From: Clostridium sp. 'deep sea'
GTDB taxonomy: Bacteria > Bacillota > UBA994 > PWPR01
Assembly: GCF_014931565.1 (NCBI RefSeq)
Contig: NZ_CP063353.1
Location: 3,658,001 to 3,722,000 of the forward strand
Direction of reading: 5' to 3'
Length of the DNA: 64,000 nucleotides
The notes below the pieces were generated by a model that did not search any database, was not told the DNA's origin, and was given only the letters and a program-made list of their open reading frames with translations. Numbering within the stretch: the stretch's first letter is position 1; each line of letters begins with the position of its first letter. Position numbers and translations under genes: made by a program. Of this stretch, positions 3,431 through 16,651 are shown piece by piece.

Positions 3431-3484
3431 TTGACATCTTCAGACTATCGTGATAGTATAGAATTGACTATCGCAATAGTCTGA
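3431..3484 (+). promoter_or_regulatory. BlaI-type promoter/operator, copy 1
   Basis: TTGACA (3431-3436), a 17-bp spacer and TAGTAT (3454-3459) form a sigma-A promoter. Two dyads overlie it: ACTATCGTGATAGT (3444-3457), covering the spacer and -10, and ACTATCGCAATAGT (3467-3480), over the likely start site. The two halves also form one larger inverted repeat beginning CAGACTAT and ending ATAGTCTG. Binding by the BlaI-like protein encoded at 8644 is inferred, because the same element precedes that gene. Confidence 0.85.
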
Positions 3485-3552
3485 AGCGTTTTTATACGCT
3501 TTTCTTAGTAATGTTTATTTATCAAATCATACAATAAGTTAGAGGTGAAATT

Positions 3553-5070
3553 ATGAAAGGCATAATTAAAGTAACCATATTTATGTTAATAATAGTTATG
3601 ACAATATCTGTATATATTTTGTATTGCCAAAAACAAAAAACTATATTATGTGAGATAAGTCAAACAAAATTAGAGCTTAAAAAACCAAAAAAAATACAGA
3701 GTGTTGGCAAAGATTTTGTTACAGTGATAGATGGCATACCACATATAAATCTAAATATTAAAACTAATTATGAAAAAATTAATGATTACTTTTCAAATAA
3801 AATTAATGAAATATCTATTAATAGCTTAATATTAAAGAAGCAAAATGACAGTATAATATATGATTTATATAATGCAAAGAATGAATTTAAAACAATAATA
3901 GAAGTTGAAGATGGATATGTATTAGCCTTTAAACAAGAGCAAGAAGAGCATAAGTTTGGTAAGCCTTACATAAAAAAAATAGACTTAACTGGTAAGGAAC
4001 AGTGGAAGTTAACAATAGATAAGGTGTTAGAAAATTTTAAAATATCTTACCTAAAACAGCTTAATAACAGGAGTATTATTATAGGTTTTGCTAGGTATGA
4101 CCCTATGTCACTTTTATTCTCCGGCAAACAGGTTCAGGATAAAAATTATTTAGTTTGTATAAGTCAAAAAGGTAAAGTTTTATGGAAGAAAGATTTTACA
4201 GAAACCTGTAAAAGTGTAATACAACATATTTTAATTTCTGATAAAGATGAACTGCTTTGTATAGGTGTATATAATACCTTAAATCCACCCAAATCAGAGC
4301 GAGCGTATTATCGAGATATTATGATAATTAAACTGGATAACAAAGGCACTATTATGAAGCAAAGAGTGTTTGGTGGTAGCAACTACGATAATGTGCGAAG
4401 TGTTGTTTATAACAAAGAGTTGGGTTTGCTTATCGGGGGTATCACTCAATCAACTGATGGCGACTTTAATCGTGAACAGGTGGGTATCCGAGAATTTATA
4501 GCTAGGCTAGATTCAGAGCTTAATACTATATGGTATAGATTAAGCAATAATACAAATACCTATAATGAAGCTTTATTAATAAGTGGCAAGTACTTATATG
4601 TTTCAAAACATGTTAGGTACTCTAGGGGTAATGCCATAATATCTTTAGATAAGTATAACAAAGATGGTGATATTTTATGTTCAGTTAAAGATGAACTGGA
4701 TCAAGAAAAAATGTTAAGTAAAACCCTTTTACCAAATGGGAATTTTTTAGTTATTTGCAGTAATGGTAAAAAGAATAAGTGTGATTTGCTAATTTATAAT
4801 AATCAAGCAGTTAAAAGATACTCACTAAAATATATACCACGAGAAATTATACCTACTAATGATGGAGGTTTTATTTTAAAGTCTGTAAGAAACATTAAAA
4901 CACTACCACAACCCTGTATTTCATATACATACTATGATACTGAAACTACAATCGAAAAATATAACAATGAATATAAGCTAGAGTGGCGTAAAAGTTATGA
5001 TCATTACCAAGATAAGTTAGGAACAGATTTTGTTTTACCATTGCCAAGTGGCAAAGTTATTGTACAGTAA
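3553..5070 (+). CDS. Secreted propeller-like protein, paralog 1
   Basis: This 505-residue protein is the first of four paralogs. Residues about 4-25 are a signal or anchor helix; no good lipobox is seen, so it is probably membrane-tethered or exported. The body carries repeated strands such as GGSNYDNVRSV, LLIGGITQSTDGDF and FIARLDSELNTIWYRL, the pattern of bacterial beta-propeller repeats in which a GG-x-x-Y-D block precedes a strand ending in W. No catalytic motif is visible. The last 45 residues, ending PLPSGKVIVQ, are almost invariant in the family. ATG follows GAGGTG. Controlled by operator copy 1. It most resembles paralog 4 (shared LNPPKS segment). Confidence 0.8.
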   Translation: MKGIIKVTIFMLIIVMTISVYILYCQKQKTILCEISQTKLELKKPKKIQSVGKDFVTVIDGIPHINLNIKTNYEKINDYFSNKINEISINSLILKKQNDSIIYDLYNAKNEFKTIIEVEDGYVLAFKQEQEEHKFGKPYIKKIDLTGKEQWKLTIDKVLENFKISYLKQLNNRSIIIGFARYDPMSLLFSGKQVQDKNYLVCISQKGKVLWKKDFTETCKSVIQHILISDKDELLCIGVYNTLNPPKSERAYYRDIMIIKLDNKGTIMKQRVFGGSNYDNVRSVVYNKELGLLIGGITQSTDGDFNREQVGIREFIARLDSELNTIWYRLSNNTNTYNEALLISGKYLYVSKHVRYSRGNAIISLDKYNKDGDILCSVKDELDQEKMLSKTLLPNGNFLVICSNGKKNKCDLLIYNNQAVKRYSLKYIPREIIPTNDGGFILKSVRNIKTLPQPCISYTYYDTETTIEKYNNEYKLEWRKSYDHYQDKLGTDFVLPLPSGKVIVQ

Positions 5071-5181
5071 ACTCGTTAGCTTAGATTACAACTGAGTTAA
5101 TATTTTATCGCTAATATTGTAGTGATGTGATTCCAGCGTTGTTCATTACCTAAAGAAGTATTATAGACTAAGTTAATAACG

Positions 5182-5236
5182 TTGACACTTACAGACTAAC
5201 ATGATAGGATAAATATAAACTATTGTGATAGTCTGA
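5182..5236 (+). promoter_or_regulatory. BlaI-type promoter/operator, copy 2
   Basis: TTGACA (5182-5187), 17-bp spacer, TAGGAT (5205-5210). The upstream dyad is degenerate (ACTAACATGATAGG, 5195-5208) while the downstream one is intact (ACTATTGTGATAGT, 5219-5232). Weaker repression than at the other copies is a possible consequence. Confidence 0.8.
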
Positions 5237-5362
5237 GGGGATGTTTTAAACAATAAAAATAAATTAAACAATGCAAAGAAACTTAGAAAACAACAGCAGA
5301 AATGACTGAATAACTGCAAGAAAAAAGTAGGTGTAATTATACAATATTTAGAAGGTGAAATA

Positions 5363-6832
5363 GTGAAGTATATTAATAAAATATCAATATTTATATTAAT
5401 AATAGTTGTGTTTATAACTTTAGGTGTAATAAGTATTGAAAAACAAATACAGATTATCGATACAGATAAAGATGTAACAACTATTTATGATATGCAACAT
5501 CTAAAAACGATTAAAATTAAATATTATGAAAAACTTAGTGATTATTGTTCTCATAAAATTAATGAGATACCCATTACTAGTATGTCACTAATGAAGATAG
5601 ATAATTTTAGAATATATGATGCAGATAACCCAAATAGTGAATTAAAAGAACTAATAGAAGTTGAAGATGGATATTTATTAGCATTTAAACAAAAGCAAGA
5701 TGTTATAGGATTTAAAGAGCGTGAGTTTTATAATACATACATAAAAAAAATAGATTTAACTGGGAAAGAGCTATGGAAGTTAACAATAGATAAAGCATTG
5801 CAGAAGTTAACGATAGATTACTTTAAAGTACTACCTAACCGAAATATAATTATTAGTTTTACAGCTTGTGAACTTCACGAGCAGTTACAGAAAAAGAGTA
5901 TAACTTGTATTAGCCAGCAAGGCCAAGTTCTATGGAAACAAAGCTTTACAGAAACCTGCGGAAGTGTAATAAAACATATTTTATATACTGAAAAAAATGA
6001 ATTGTATTGTGTTGGTGCTTGTAATACTAAAAACCCAATCGAGTCAGATCAGCAGTATCATAGAGATATAGTACTGACCAAAATAAATAACAAAGGCGTT
6101 ATTGTTAAACAGAGATTATTTGGAGGTAGCAATTACGATGATGTTCATTGTGTTGAATACAATAAGCAGTTTGGTTTGGTTATTGCAGGAGCAACTAAGT
6201 CATTTGATGGTGAATTTATAGAACGCATATTTAAAGATACTCGAGACTTTGTAGCTCTGTTTGATTCAAATCTTAACACTTTATGGTGTAGAATAAACAT
6301 GGATAAACATAACGATGACACGAACAATAAAAATATTATAGTAAATAATAAAATTATTTATCTTACTAAATATCTTTTTGATGATTATACTTACCATGAA
6401 AGAATAGCTATGATTAAAATATATGATAAGACTGGTGATAGATTATATAAACAATTAACTACCACCACACAATACGATATATTCAAAAAACATACACTAC
6501 TACCAAATGGATGGTTTATAGTGGCCAATGCTAATCGTAATAGTTGTTGTTTATTAATCTATAATGATCAGGGCAATTATAAAACAGGTTATTTCTTAGG
6601 ACATTCGCCACAAGATATTATACCCACTGTTGATGGAGGTTTTATTTTAAAATCTATTAGAGAAATTAAAACACTACCATTTTCATGTATGCGGCATGAT
6701 ACTGAAACAATAATCGAAAAATATAACAATGAATATAAGCTAGAGTGGCGTAAAAGTTATGATCATTACCAAGATAAGTTAGGAACAGATTTTGTTTTAC
6801 CATTGCCAAGTGGAAAAGTTATTGTGCAGTAA
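5363..6832 (+). CDS. Secreted propeller-like protein, paralog 2
   Basis: A 489-residue member of the same family. It starts with GTG at 5363 after GAAGGTG, and its first 25 residues (ISIFILIIVV...) form a signal/anchor helix. Repeated strands include GGSNYDDVHCVEYN and FVALFDSNLNTLWCRI. The segment DNPNSELKELIEVEDGY is shared with paralog 3, and the C-terminal 45 residues are nearly identical to paralog 1 even at the DNA level. It has its own promoter/operator, so each copy can be expressed as a single-gene unit. Function unknown; extracellular binding or sensing is inferred from fold type and context. Confidence 0.8.
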   Translation: MKYINKISIFILIIVVFITLGVISIEKQIQIIDTDKDVTTIYDMQHLKTIKIKYYEKLSDYCSHKINEIPITSMSLMKIDNFRIYDADNPNSELKELIEVEDGYLLAFKQKQDVIGFKEREFYNTYIKKIDLTGKELWKLTIDKALQKLTIDYFKVLPNRNIIISFTACELHEQLQKKSITCISQQGQVLWKQSFTETCGSVIKHILYTEKNELYCVGACNTKNPIESDQQYHRDIVLTKINNKGVIVKQRLFGGSNYDDVHCVEYNKQFGLVIAGATKSFDGEFIERIFKDTRDFVALFDSNLNTLWCRINMDKHNDDTNNKNIIVNNKIIYLTKYLFDDYTYHERIAMIKIYDKTGDRLYKQLTTTTQYDIFKKHTLLPNGWFIVANANRNSCCLLIYNDQGNYKTGYFLGHSPQDIIPTVDGGFILKSIREIKTLPFSCMRHDTETIIEKYNNEYKLEWRKSYDHYQDKLGTDFVLPLPSGKVIVQ

Positions 6833-6863
6833 TTTCATTCATGTTAACTAAACTATAAATATG

Positions 6864-6916
6864 TTGACACCAACAGACTATCGTGATAGTATGAGTATAC
6901 TATTGCGATAGTCTGT
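6864..6916 (+). promoter_or_regulatory. BlaI-type promoter/operator, copy 3
   Basis: TTGACA (6864-6869), 17-bp spacer, TAGTAT (6887-6892). Dyads ACTATCGTGATAGT (6877-6890, identical to copy 1) and ACTATTGCGATAGT (6899-6912), 22 bp apart start to start. Confidence 0.85.
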
Positions 6917-7004
6917 TTAGTTTACTTGAATAAAATTTAAAAAAATTAATGCAAAACTTAAAGTCCCATTATAGATTCAACAATAAATAAGAGAAGGTGA
7001 AGAA

Positions 7005-8489
7005 GTGAAGTATGTTAGTAAAATATCAATATTTATATTAATAATAGTTATGTTTATAACTTTAGGTGCCTTTAGTAGTGAAAAACCAACCCAAATCATA
7101 AATACAGATATAGAAGCAATTATAGATTCTATAGCAGATCTAAACGATGATAAAAATAAACATTGTCAAAATATTAGCGATTATCAACCTAATAAAATTA
7201 ATGAAATACCTCTTACTAGTTTGTCACTAATAAAAATAAATAATTTTAAAATATATGATGCAGAGAATCCCAATAGTGAATTAAAAGAGCTAATAGAAGT
7301 TGAAGAGGGATATTCATTAGCATTTAAACAAAAGCAAGATATAAAGGGCTTTAAAGAGCGTGAGTTTTATAAACCATACATTAAAAAAATAGATTTATCT
7401 GGTAAAGAATTGTGGCAGTTAACAATAGATAATGCATTGCAACATTTAACAATAGATTATTTTAAACAACTGGCTAACGGAAATTTAATTATTAGTTTTT
7501 CAGGCTGTGAAGCTAATCAACAGTTGCATAAAAAGAATAATTTAACTTGTATTAGCCAGCAAGGCGAGGTTTTATGGAAACAAAGCTTTGCAGAAACATG
7601 TGGAAGTGTAATAAAACATATTTTAAATACTGAAAATAATGATTTGCTTTGTGTTGGAATTTGTAACACCAAAAACTTAACTGATAAATCATCAGTCTCA
7701 GTTAGAGACATAGTAATAACTAAAATAAATAACAATGGCGTTATTGTTAAACAAAGATTATTTGGAGGTAACGATTACGATGATGTTCACTGTATTGCTT
7801 ACAGCAAGCAGTTCGGTTTAGTTATTGCAGGAGTAACTAAATCAACTAACGGAGACTTTAAAAATAGAGATTTCTCAGATAACCAAGGGTTTATAGCTAG
7901 GCTAGATTCTAATCTTAACACTATATGGTACAGACTAAATAAGATTAGCGAATGCTTTAATAATAATGTTTTAATAAGTGATAAATACTTATATCTTACT
8001 AAACATGCTAGAGATGTGGGCATTAATAGCATAGGTATTATTGAAAAATACAATGATAATGGAGATATAGTATTATCAACTAAAAGCAAGCTATCTCAAA
8101 AGCGATTTAAACATGAAACTCTTTTACCAAATGGCGATTTTCTAATTCCCTGTAGCAATTTTATAGTTAAATGTAGCAATAGGTATGTGGGTGATTTATT
8201 AATTTATAGTAATCAGGGATTAATTAAAAAAAATTATGCCTTAAACTATTCTCCACAAGATATTATTCCGACTGTTGACGGAGGGTTTATTATAAAATCT
8301 ATTAGATACATTAAACGAGCAACTCTGCCTATAGTTGTGTCTCTTGCACTTTATGATACTGAAACAATAATTGAAAAATATAATAATGAATACGAGTTAG
8401 AGTGGTGTAAAAGCTATGATAATTACCAAGATAAGTTAGGAACAGATTTTGTTTTACCATTGCCAAGTGGCAAAGTTATTGTGCAGTAA
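7005..8489 (+). CDS. Secreted propeller-like protein, paralog 3
   Basis: A 494-residue paralog with GTG start after GAAGGTG and an N-terminal hydrophobic helix (residues about 6-23) ending near GAFSSE. It shares the internal strands GGNDYDDVHCIAYS and FIARLDSNLNTIWYRL and the common C-terminus. It is closest to paralog 2 in its first half. A stretch near residues 445-460 (IKRATLPIVVSL) differs from the others. No catalytic residues recognised. The gene lies directly upstream of the repressor operon and has its own operator copy. Confidence 0.8.
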   Translation: MKYVSKISIFILIIVMFITLGAFSSEKPTQIINTDIEAIIDSIADLNDDKNKHCQNISDYQPNKINEIPLTSLSLIKINNFKIYDAENPNSELKELIEVEEGYSLAFKQKQDIKGFKEREFYKPYIKKIDLSGKELWQLTIDNALQHLTIDYFKQLANGNLIISFSGCEANQQLHKKNNLTCISQQGEVLWKQSFAETCGSVIKHILNTENNDLLCVGICNTKNLTDKSSVSVRDIVITKINNNGVIVKQRLFGGNDYDDVHCIAYSKQFGLVIAGVTKSTNGDFKNRDFSDNQGFIARLDSNLNTIWYRLNKISECFNNNVLISDKYLYLTKHARDVGINSIGIIEKYNDNGDIVLSTKSKLSQKRFKHETLLPNGDFLIPCSNFIVKCSNRYVGDLLIYSNQGLIKKNYALNYSPQDIIPTVDGGFIIKSIRYIKRATLPIVVSLALYDTETIIEKYNNEYELEWCKSYDNYQDKLGTDFVLPLPSGKVIVQ

Positions 8490-8578
8490 CTTGTTAGTTA
8501 TGGTAAGTATTTAAATTGGCTAAATTTTTTAGCTAAAACTCTAAGAAGCTAATGATAAATTTGACCTTCTTTGCAATA

Positions 8579-8633
8579 TTGACATCTACAGACTATCATG
8601 GTAGTATTGATATATACTATTACAATAGTCTGA
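8579..8633 (+). promoter_or_regulatory. BlaI-type promoter/operator, copy 4 (autoregulatory)
   Basis: TTGACA (8579-8584), 17-bp spacer, TAGTAT (8602-8607). Dyads ACTATCATGGTAGT (8592-8605) and ACTATTACAATAGT (8616-8629). It sits directly before the BlaI-type gene, which therefore very likely represses its own operon. Confidence 0.85.
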
Positions 8634-8643
8634 GGTGTTATAA

Positions 8644-9012
8644 ATGAAAAAAATAAAATTATTTGATGCAGAATTAAGATTAATGGAATTAATATGGCAG
8701 CAGCAAAAACAGCCAGTAAGTGCTAAACAACTTAGTATATTGGCAAACGATGAAATAGGTTGGAATAAAAATACCACCTATACTGTTATAAAAAAGTTAG
8801 TAGCTAAAAATGCTGTAAAGCGTGAAGAACCCAACTATATATGTGTGCCTTTAATTTCACGAGACCAAGTTCAATTAGCTGAAACCCGTGATTTAATTAA
8901 TAAACTATTTGAGGGCTCTGTAAAAACATTTTTTAGCTCATTTATAAAAAAAGAAAATTTAACTGATGATGAGATATCTCAGTTAAAAGACTTAATAGAC
9001 AAAAAGCTTTAG
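8644..9012 (+). CDS. BlaI/MecI/CopY-family transcriptional repressor
   Basis: The 122-residue length and layout match BlaI/MecI: an N-terminal winged helix with the recognition segment WNKNTTYTVIKKL (about residues 40-52) and a C-terminal dimerisation region. In the known family, dimers bind dyads over the promoter and are inactivated by proteolysis after a signal from an M56 membrane protease. Here the matching protease gene follows 10 nt downstream, and four dyad promoters lie nearby. The segment around FFSSF (about 97-101) lies where family members are cleaved. First gene of an operon with the protease and paralog 4. Confidence 0.9.
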   Translation: MKKIKLFDAELRLMELIWQQQKQPVSAKQLSILANDEIGWNKNTTYTVIKKLVAKNAVKREEPNYICVPLISRDQVQLAETRDLINKLFEGSVKTFFSSFIKKENLTDDEISQLKDLIDKKL

Positions 9013-9022
9013 TGGTAAAAAA

Positions 9023-10015
9023 ATGCTAAATACCATATTTTATTATTTACTCAACATGAGTATTATGGGTTCTTTTGTAGGGCTAATAGTTTTAGTTTTG
9101 GTAAAACTATTGCATAAATTTTTTCCTCAAAAGTTTATATTTGCTTTGTGGGCTATTGTTGCTTTTAGGTTTTTGTTTCCACTAACAATATCTAGTAAGT
9201 ACAGTTTAATTAATCTTATTGCTGGTAGGTTTGCAAAAGCAATACATGTTAAATTTGGAGAAACATTTATTCCAATAAGACCACCAGTAACAACCACTAA
9301 TTTTCTGTTGGCAGTAAAAAATTATCAGCCTTTAGTGTATAAAAATGATAACATAGAGAGTCTATTTAACATTATAAGTAACTTTTGGTTTGTAGGCCTA
9401 GTTATAGCTGTTATAGTAGCTATAGTATTGTATATATTAACTATTAAGCAGTTTAAGACAGCAACTTTAGTGAAAGGTTATGAAGCTGATTTAAAGAATT
9501 GCTGTAAAAAACTAAAACTCTCGAACAATATAAAACTTAAACAAATAAGTAAACTTAAAACTCCAGTAGTAATGGGTATAGTTAATGCAACAATTATCTT
9601 GCCTACTGTTATTAAAGAAGACTATGTAAACTATATTTTGTTGCATGAGTGTAGCCATATTAAAAGAAGAGATAATCTGTGGAGACTTGTAAGTATTTTT
9701 ATTACCTGTATTCACTGGTTTAACCCCTTTGTTTGGTATTTTTTATATCTTTGTGAACGAGATATAGAAAAGGCGTGTGATGAAAAAGTAGTAACTTTAA
9801 TTAGTAAACAACAGGTTAAAGAATACGCATCCGTACTAATTAGTCTTTCACAAAAACAAACAACACCATTATTGGCTTTGGGTAATACTGCTGTAAAAGA
9901 ACGAATAATAAACATAACAAACTATAAAAAATTGTCTCTGTTAATGATAATAATTACAGTAATTTTGTTGACTATCCTATCAGTGCTTTTATCAACAAAT
10001 CAAATTATAAGTTAG
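9023..10015 (+). CDS. M56 (BlaR1-like) membrane metalloprotease without sensor domain
   Basis: A 330-residue membrane protein of peptidase family M56. Hydrophobic segments lie near residues 13-30, 37-54, 120-140, 222-243 and 305-324. The zinc site HECSH is at 208-212, and the family motif ERDIEKACDE at 245-254 supplies the third ligand. BlaR1 and MecR1 carry a C-terminal penicillin-binding sensor of about 250 residues; this protein stops right after its last helix, so it has none. By analogy it would lead to cleavage of the BlaI-like repressor encoded just upstream. The signal may come from another protein, possibly paralog 4, whose GTG lies 11 nt downstream. Confidence 0.88.
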   Translation: MLNTIFYYLLNMSIMGSFVGLIVLVLVKLLHKFFPQKFIFALWAIVAFRFLFPLTISSKYSLINLIAGRFAKAIHVKFGETFIPIRPPVTTTNFLLAVKNYQPLVYKNDNIESLFNIISNFWFVGLVIAVIVAIVLYILTIKQFKTATLVKGYEADLKNCCKKLKLSNNIKLKQISKLKTPVVMGIVNATIILPTVIKEDYVNYILLHECSHIKRRDNLWRLVSIFITCIHWFNPFVWYFLYLCERDIEKACDEKVVTLISKQQVKEYASVLISLSQKQTTPLLALGNTAVKERIINITNYKKLSLLMIIITVILLTILSVLLSTNQIIS

Positions 10016-10026
10016 AAGGTGAAGTC

Positions 10027-11550
10027 GTGAAGTGTATTAGAAAAATTTTTACATTAATGTTATTAGTAGTTCTTTTAATAACCCTATGCGCCTTTAGTAG
10101 TGAAAATCAAAAAGATAAATCGAAATTAAGTGATGTAAAAGAGTTCAAACAAGAAAAGCATGAAGAAGTTAAAATTATAGACATAAATGGTGTACCACAT
10201 TTTAACCTAAATAGAAATACTAATTACGAAAAAATTACTGATTATTGCTCTCACAAAATTGATGAAATACCACTTACTAGTTTGGCAATGATAAAACAAA
10301 ACTATAGCAGAATATATGATGTAAATAATGAAAATATTGAATTAATAAAAATCATAGAAGTTGAAGATGGATATTTATTAGCATTTAAACAAAAGCAAGA
10401 TATCAAAGGCTTTAAAGATCGTAAATTTCATAAACCTTACATAAAAAAAATAGATTTTACTGGTAAAGAGTTATGGCATTTAACATTAACTAATGTATCA
10501 GAGCATTTAACAATTGATTTGTTTAAACAACTGCCTAACGGCAATATAATTATTAGTTTTACTGGTTATGAACCTGTTACTTTATTTATGTCAAGCCAAA
10601 AGGTGCAAAATAAAAACAACTTAACTTGTATCAGCCAGCAAGGTGAAGTTTTATGGAAGCAAAGTTTTATAGAAACCTGTGACAGTGTAATAAAACATAT
10701 TTTAGTTACTGAAAAAGATGAATTACTTTGTGTAGGTGTTTGTGATACCTTAAATCCACCAAAATCGGGGCAAGACTACCATAAAGATATAGTGTTAAGT
10801 AAAATAGATAACAAAGGTGCTATTATTAAACAAAGGATATTTGGGGGAAGTAATTTTGATAATGTGAGAAGTGTTGATTATAGTAAACAGTTTGGTTTGC
10901 TTATTGAAGGAATGACTGAATCAACTAATGGTGACTTTAAAAATCGTGAATCGTCAAACATGCAAAAATTTATTGCTAGGCTAGATTCAAACCTTAATTC
11001 TATATGGTGTAAATTAAGTAACAATAAAAATTACTATGGTGAAGATATTTTAATAAATGATAAGTATGTATATATTACAAAACATATTCGTGAAAATGCT
11101 AGTAGTGATAGAATAGGCATTATTGAAAAATACAATAAAAATGGAGATATATTATCTTCAGTTGAAATAAATCTACAGCAAAAGCACTTGTTAAATGAAA
11201 CCCTCTTACCAAATGGTGACTTTATAATTACCTGTAGTAGTGGTGATATGTGTGAATTAAGAATTTATAATCAGCTAGGAATTATTAAAAAAAGCTTTTC
11301 ACTAAAACATTCACCACGGGATATTATAGTTACTACAGATGGTGGCTTTATTTTAAAGTCTACCAGAAACATAAAAACATTACCACAACCTTTGGTTATA
11401 TCATGCATATGGTATGATACTGAAACCACAATTGAAAAATATAATAATAAATATGAGCTAGAGTGGCGTAAAAGTTATGATAATTACCAAGACGAGTTAG
11501 GAACAGACTTCGTTTTACCATTGCCTAGTGGCAAGGTGATTGTGCAGTAA
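10027..11550 (+). CDS. Secreted propeller-like protein, paralog 4 (in repressor operon)
   Basis: The longest paralog (507 residues), GTG start after GAAGGTG, third gene of the BlaI-M56 operon. The N-terminal helix ends LLITLCAFSSE; the Cys lacks a proper lipobox residue before it, so lipidation is doubtful. It shares with paralog 1 an N-terminal block (NTNYEKITDY), the insertion near VQNKNNL and the LNPPKSG segment. The same propeller-type strands (GGSNFDNVRSVDYS, FIARLDSNLNSIWCKL) and the family C-terminus are present. Its position downstream of a sensor-less M56 protease makes it a candidate ligand-binding partner; this is inference. Confidence 0.8.
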   Translation: MKCIRKIFTLMLLVVLLITLCAFSSENQKDKSKLSDVKEFKQEKHEEVKIIDINGVPHFNLNRNTNYEKITDYCSHKIDEIPLTSLAMIKQNYSRIYDVNNENIELIKIIEVEDGYLLAFKQKQDIKGFKDRKFHKPYIKKIDFTGKELWHLTLTNVSEHLTIDLFKQLPNGNIIISFTGYEPVTLFMSSQKVQNKNNLTCISQQGEVLWKQSFIETCDSVIKHILVTEKDELLCVGVCDTLNPPKSGQDYHKDIVLSKIDNKGAIIKQRIFGGSNFDNVRSVDYSKQFGLLIEGMTESTNGDFKNRESSNMQKFIARLDSNLNSIWCKLSNNKNYYGEDILINDKYVYITKHIRENASSDRIGIIEKYNKNGDILSSVEINLQQKHLLNETLLPNGDFIITCSSGDMCELRIYNQLGIIKKSFSLKHSPRDIIVTTDGGFILKSTRNIKTLPQPLVISCIWYDTETTIEKYNNKYELEWRKSYDNYQDELGTDFVLPLPSGKVIVQ

Positions 11551-15847: not shown

Positions 15848-16651
15848 TTGGCTAGAAAAGCAAGACAAATAAGCAGTACAGGCTATTATCACGTTATGGT
15901 TAGAGGAAATAACAAAGAGCCTATATTTACCAAAAAGTCAGCAAAAATAAAATATATAAACTTACTAAATGAACATATGTTAAGCAATAATGTGCAATTA
16001 GTAGCTTGGTGTATTATGAATAATCACGCTCATTTAGTATTAAAATCAGAAATAACTGAGTTGCAAGAAACAATGAGCATTACCAATACCAAGTTTGCAA
16101 TGTTATATAATTATATTAATGATAGAGTTGGTCATGTTTTTCAGGATAGATATAAAAGTGAGCAAATAGAAACAGATGAGTATTTAATGAATGTTGTTAG
16201 GTATGTACATAATAACCCTGTTAAAGCTAATATAGTTGATGATGCTGATGACTATGAGTGGAGTAGCTATAAGGAATATTTTAAAACAACTTCTTATATA
16301 AGTAATGAACAAAAGCAGTTTATATTGCAGTATTTTAACAAAGATAATCTCAGATTTACATTGTTTCATAGTACAGATGACATTAATATCTACTTAGATA
16401 CCCAAGAAGACAAAGAGCTTTTTCTTATGAGTCGTGCTCAAAGTATATTATCAAGCTTTTGTCGCTTAAATGGAATAAGAAATGCCAAACAGTTGTATAA
16501 AGATAATGAGTTATTAGAGCAATTAATAACTGAGCTGTTATCAAAAACAAAACTATCACAAAGAGCAATTGCTAAACTAATAGGCACAAAAAGATACAAG
16601 GTAGATTCAGTAGCAAAAAAAATAAATACAGATTTAAATATTAATAACTAA
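15848..16651 (+). CDS. REP-associated Y1 tyrosine transposase (RAYT)
   Basis: A 267-residue TnpA-REP family protein. It has the N-terminal GYYHVMVRGNN block, the HUH motif NHAHLVL (about residues 60-66) for metal binding, and the downstream YVHNNPVKA block supplying the catalytic tyrosine. Such enzymes nick single-stranded DNA at REP palindromes. The C-terminal about 80 residues resemble a DnaA-like helix-turn-helix extension found in Firmicute homologs (LSQRAIAKLIGTKRYKV). The start is TTG after AGGGGTGA. Three matching REP palindromes are in the vicinity (15784, 18118, 18167). Confidence 0.9.
   Translation: MARKARQISSTGYYHVMVRGNNKEPIFTKKSAKIKYINLLNEHMLSNNVQLVAWCIMNNHAHLVLKSEITELQETMSITNTKFAMLYNYINDRVGHVFQDRYKSEQIETDEYLMNVVRYVHNNPVKANIVDDADDYEWSSYKEYFKTTSYISNEQKQFILQYFNKDNLRFTLFHSTDDINIYLDTQEDKELFLMSRAQSILSSFCRLNGIRNAKQLYKDNELLEQLITELLSKTKLSQRAIAKLIGTKRYKVDSVAKKINTDLNINN

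Follow-up and report, generated by a model that had tools for sequence, protein, structure and literature searches.

The locus at positions 3431-11550 of the DNA analysed here (the window, a 64,000-nucleotide stretch from Clostridium sp. 'deep sea') raises the question of which genes a BlaI-type repressor and its membrane protease control, and how a signal reaches the protease when it carries no sensor domain. Genes for four paralogous exported proteins (P1-P4) lie here together with genes for a repressor of the BlaI/MecI type and an M56 metalloprotease, all on the + strand. P1, P2 and P3 each form a separate transcription unit and blaI-M56-P4 a single operon, within which the GTG start of P4 is 11 nt past the M56 stop. 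The features are as follows.

3431-3483, + strand: O1, predicted promoter/operator of P1 (TTGACA 3431-3436; dyad 1 3444-3457; -10 TAGTAT 3454-3459; dyad 2 3467-3480)
3553-5070, + strand: P1, exported (secreted or membrane-anchored) predicted beta-propeller paralog, 505 aa
5182-5235, + strand: O2, predicted promoter/operator of P2 (dyads 5195-5208 and 5219-5232; the most diverged first dyad, ACTAACATGATAGG)
5363-6832, + strand: P2, predicted beta-propeller paralog, 489 aa, GTG start
6864-6915, + strand: O3, predicted promoter/operator of P3 (dyads 6877-6890 and 6899-6912)
7005-8489, + strand: P3, predicted beta-propeller paralog, 494 aa, GTG start
8579-8632, + strand: O4, predicted promoter/operator of the blaI-M56-P4 operon (dyads 8592-8605 and 8616-8629; same site in the sibling species G001)
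8644-9012, + strand: BlaI/MecI-type repressor, 122 aa
9023-10015, + strand: M56 metalloprotease, 330 aa, without an extracellular sensor domain
10027-11550, + strand: P4, operon-encoded predicted beta-propeller paralog, 507 aa, GTG start, candidate detached sensor

Elsewhere in the window, a membrane-anchored protein with a DUF4829 match barely above the cut-off is encoded upstream of the propeller cluster (176-1285), and an ORF at 15848-16651 was judged by eye to resemble a REP-associated (Y1-type) transposase.

The repressor was assigned to the Penicillinase_R family (Pfam PF03965; E = 1.7e-22, 80.4 bits against a curated cut-off of 22.6). BlaR1 is described as cutting BlaI at the N101-F102 bond (PMC9834060), and in the alignment with MecI this bond was matched by S99-F100, with F100 in the position of MecI F102, so that the Phe at P1' is retained. 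The protease was assigned to Peptidase_M56 (PF05569; E = 6.7e-51, 173.6 bits against a cut-off of 31), with HECSH at residue 208 and four predicted transmembrane (TM) helices. Residues 9-322 of its 330 residues aligned to the solved BlaR1 structure (8exs). Since the protein ends 8 residues past this aligned core, it has no ectodomain, which together with the four predicted helices bears out the earlier note's claim of a protease with no sensor. The C-terminal penicillin-binding sensor domain of BlaR1/MecR1 receptors was likewise absent, and the score against the NCBIfam model blaR1_generic was 110 bits for a cut-off of 400. The TM prediction leaves an extracellular loop of approximately 66 residues between the end of TM2 at residue 56 and the start of TM3 at residue 123. 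Six further M56 frames occur in this genome, each 483-987 codons long and with an ectodomain, and nearly all of the approximately 100 M56 frames listed for relatives exceed 400 codons. Other short M56 frames in relatives were considered as further split receptors and rejected as truncated, frame-shifted or ambiguous.

The earlier note had proposed that four promoters with the same double dyad drive P1-P3 and the BlaI-M56-P4 operon. Paired dyads were found at all four, on the promoter plan TTGACA-N17-TAGTAT (TAGGAT for P2). The first dyad (GACTATCGTGATAGT at O1) occupies the spacer and overlaps the -10 element, and the second begins 22-24 bp downstream. Single-dyad matches were enriched in the window (23 against 5.9 expected, a count reached in none of 100 shuffles); genome-wide, a pattern search for the single dyad with up to two mismatches returned 234 forward matches, compared with 212 for its control. 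As the single dyad is this common in an AT-rich genome, only the paired site is diagnostic. A genome-wide scan with the gapped pattern GACTA-N6-TAG-N(4-14)-CTAT-N4-ATAGTC gave exactly four matches in 3.83 Mb, all at O1-O4, plus one in the same-genus genome G001, and the reversed control pattern gave no match in the same genome scan. The search for the dyad elsewhere in the genome, advised in the earlier note, thus had a divided outcome, with the paired site exclusive to these four promoters and the single dyad widespread. The match in G001 is the promoter of that genome's own blaI-M56-propeller operon, and the strongest argument for a functional paired site is that it is conserved between the two species.

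With the paired site present genome-wide only at P1-P3 and the blaI operon, and with no beta-lactamase or PBP2a gene among the operator-bearing genes, the locus falls outside the BlaR1/MecR1 beta-lactam regulons, and both the self-contained regulon and the absence of the classical targets held as originally described. A closed regulon comprising BlaI/M56 and the four propellers is well supported and very probable. The remaining BlaI operators of this genome have half-sites that differ from the GACTAT class, which suggests that its BlaI circuits may be insulated from one another.

The promoter plan itself is already known, and BlaI operons of related genomes usually have it. Approximately 55 BlaI genes adjoining an M56 gene were compared, from this genome and its relatives, and the same double-dyad plan was seen at most of their promoters, with half-sites that varied (e.g. 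TTACA/TACA, GTCTAT and GTTTAT). This layout was judged by eye; a shuffled null for the promoter geometry was poorly tuned and was left out of the evidence. For C. thermocellum, DAP-seq and gel shift are described as pointing to a pair of BlaI proteins that use GTCTAT and GACTAT half-sites, each promoter having two inverted pairs and the regulons being very small (PMC8457756). As the relatives and C. thermocellum share the plan, the operator here is a standard design in one of its specificity classes.

The four paralogs are 49-63% identical in pairwise comparison, begin with a hydrophobic segment, vary hardly at all in a stretch at the C-terminus, and are the sole members of their family in the genome. 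The AlphaFold2 model of P4, built from a six-sequence alignment, was a seven-bladed beta-propeller of seven four-strand blocks (pLDDT 76.7, pTM 0.73), with low confidence for residues 23-65. Foldseek matched this model to many propellers. At the level of prediction, the propeller fold is clear for the paralogs, in agreement with the propeller-like nature first ascribed to them. The 3' ends of P1 (to 5070), P2 (to 6832) and P3 (to 8489) were approximately 97% identical at the DNA level, with mostly 50-89% identity over the rest, and the near-identical stretch suggests local gene conversion. P4 was not cleanly separated from P1-P3 in a small tree. A clear lipobox was not present in P4; the propeller of G001 has a lipobox-like LSSC, on the basis of which it would sit at the membrane surface.

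The same gene order was found in G001, where BlaI was 70%, M56 47% and the propeller 31-35% identical to the proteins of the source genome. The G001 protease also lacks a sensor and was the sole M56 detected in that genome at E <= 1e-20. G001 has a single propeller copy, which is the third gene of the operon as in the source genome and has P4 as its best-scoring match. The gene-neighbourhood search proposed in the earlier note, for a sensor-less M56 beside similar proteins, therefore found one further instance, the G001 operon, and the three-gene module of BlaI, M56 and propeller was seen in these two species only. The closest family members outside the genus were lone propeller genes in G161 and G403 of another genus (L055, L183); the stretches read around them contained neither BlaI nor M56. 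Because of these lone genes, the propeller family is not inherently an M56 partner. More distant propeller matches in nine genomes (G188, G027, G157, G153, G282, G305, G063, G200 and G324) were rejected as generic repeat proteins, and no BlaI or M56 gene was found beside them in the fetched stretches. The search for propeller relatives gave none in viral contigs, one weak partial match in plasmids and only distant repeat proteins, mostly from Bacteroidota, in named genomes; a literature search for M56 with propellers returned nothing relevant.

A possible precedent for a propeller as sensor came from other M56 loci of this genome. In a 530-aa M56 at G000:C1:3358-3360 kb (locus G000:C1:3355.9-3359.8 kb; L137:409-3501, L057), the ectodomain shared 33-38% identity with two secreted proteins encoded in tandem just upstream, the homology taking in the last membrane helix of the ectodomain. 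These two secreted genes sit behind a double-dyad operator resembling that of the local blaI. Like the propeller locus, this second locus combines secreted paralogs in tandem with a BlaI-M56 operon, under similar operators; it differs in that M56 itself contains the paralog domain, fused on as the ectodomain, and this domain is unrelated in sequence to the propellers. The ectodomain of a 671-aa M56 in a BlaI-M56 pair (L058/L138; G000:C1:3432-3437 kb) was homologous to the downstream secreted neighbour (E = 7e-18). Five further loci with such a mirror were found in the relatives surveyed, the neighbour proteins being of transpeptidase-fold, Amidase_6 and NAGPA types, and most M56 loci surveyed had no ectodomain-like neighbour. 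In L177 and L179, from two genomes of one genus, the M56 ectodomain was 56-62% identical over 229-243 residues to an NAGPA (phosphodiester glycosidase) neighbour. A beta-lactamase is what the BlaR1 system induces. The BlaR1 sensor domain is described as related to class D beta-lactamases (PMC9834060). The likeness between ectodomain and secreted neighbour in these loci is comparable to that between the BlaR1 sensor and the induced enzyme.

A separate region (L056 and L139; G000:C1:3326-3341 kb) holds three BlaI-M56 pairs, two of which are divergent, in approximately 12 kb. WG repeats and an Ig-like domain are present in one of the ectodomains, and another is a region of 541 aa that matched no family. 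When the ectodomain of the 917-aa M56 (L139) was probed as a fused propeller, its predicted fold had a pLDDT of 34.8, and one weak relative was found.

In the mechanism that we propose, BlaI dimers would bind the two promoter-overlapping dyads at each of the four sites and repress P1-P3 and blaI-M56-P4. An extracellular signal would activate the membrane-embedded M56, BlaI would be cut, and the four promoters would be freed together. P4 would act in trans as the sensor subunit of M56, making contact with the long extracellular loop that joins TM2 to TM3, and P1-P3, as duplicated exported copies, would bind or neutralise the same ligand class and so constitute the output. The steps of repression, cleavage and derepression are inferred from BlaI/BlaR1 biology, and the division between P4 as sensor and P1-P3 as outputs is modelled on the other loci of this genome. 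P4 was read as the sensor because M56 has no ectodomain and the propeller gene comes directly next in the operon, and as a split-off sensor because the array and operators follow the plan of the mirror locus but the M56 ectodomain is missing. As a whole, the account of a closed proteolytic switch with P4 as sensor and P1-P3 as outputs is judged slightly the better bet. That P4 in particular is the sensor for M56 is plausible, while falling somewhat short of probable.

A substantial minority probability attaches to the four propellers being outputs only, with P4 merely co-expressed and M56 using its own helices or loop to sense, e.g., a metal or stress on the envelope, or else relying on an unlinked partner. 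A sensor-less BlaR1 homologue is described in M. tuberculosis (PMC9834060), a cyanobacterial BlaI-family repressor and BlaR1-family protease respond to copper (PMC7896320), and the propeller family occurs alone elsewhere, all of which fit such an arrangement, as does the M56 loop of approximately 66 residues, set beside EL1 of BlaR1 at residues 56-96 (PMC9834060). Against it, both species have a propeller gene in third place in the operon, the single propeller of G001 leaves no additional copies there to serve as outputs, and some linked M56 ectodomains of this genome mirror secreted neighbours.

The propellers might alternatively belong to a known enzyme family, such as one like arylsulfotransferase or CylK, induced by its substrate. 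P3, alone of the four, gave a weak match to Arylsulfotrans (PF05935; E = 1.3e-4, 21.5 bits), under the curated cut-off of 24.2, and CylK was the best Foldseek match of the P4 model (TM approximately 0.5). A profile comparison with CylK gave a weak match over part of the propeller (E = 0.001-0.003). This reading is nevertheless unlikely: none of P1-P4 passed the curated cut-off of any Pfam family, and the Foldseek identity was approximately 12% with many unrelated propellers matched. Far-fetched by comparison is a decaying M56 that has lost its sensor, leaving the repressor effectively always on and the cluster a silenced duplicate array. The broken, truncated or ambiguous short M56 frames of relatives would be in keeping with decay, but here both species have an intact M56 that retains HExxH and the four helices (47% identity between them), BlaI is 70% identical and the operators are nearly identical. 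The dN/dS of 0.37-0.51 between paralog pairs indicates that the paralogs are under constraint.

If P4 is the detached sensor of M56, one protein family would both read and answer the signal. How BlaR1-type proteases without a sensor perceive their signals is an open question, stated as such for M. tuberculosis (PMC9834060), and the two species that keep a compact module with a candidate partner next door make it directly testable. In a wider pattern, the outside domain of M56 resembles a neighbour's secreted protein in several loci, and this domain might be either fused or separate.

The locus resembles the BlaI-BlaR1 and MecI-MecR1 systems of staphylococci and bacilli in its BlaI-family repressor with a conserved Phe at the cut site, an M56 protein that aligns with BlaR1 throughout the protease region, predicted dyad operators and a putatively autoregulated operon. 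It differs from them in that M56 lacks a C-terminal sensor domain and the operators precede no beta-lactamase or PBP gene, in having beta-propeller targets, and in its half-site, GACTAT rather than TACA, the consensus half-site of BlaI/MecI operators. The C. thermocellum BlaI regulons are likewise small and closed (one to three operons), with two inverted-repeat pairs per promoter and GACTAT or GTCTAT half-sites; the targets given in the available text are BlaR1 and hypothetical proteins, with no propeller paralog family, and a sensor-less M56 does not feature in that description (PMC8457756). The BlaI and BlaR1 homologue of M. tuberculosis share with this locus an M56 without an equivalent sensor domain, but a kinase is proposed there as the substitute sensor, and the available text mentions no adjacent secreted propeller (PMC9834060). 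PetR-PetP of Synechocystis is a BlaI/BlaR1-family pair that also serves a non-antibiotic signal, although it controls plastocyanin and cytochrome c6 in a copper-dependent manner and has no secreted paralog array (PMC7896320). As these sources describe them, small BlaI regulons with hypothetical proteins (PMC8457756) and a sensor-less BlaR1 homologue (PMC9834060) are already known. What this locus may add, as a tentative proposal, is a split BlaR1-type receptor, in which a sensor-less M56 would be signalled by the exported P4 and amplified paralogs of the sensor would form the regulated output.
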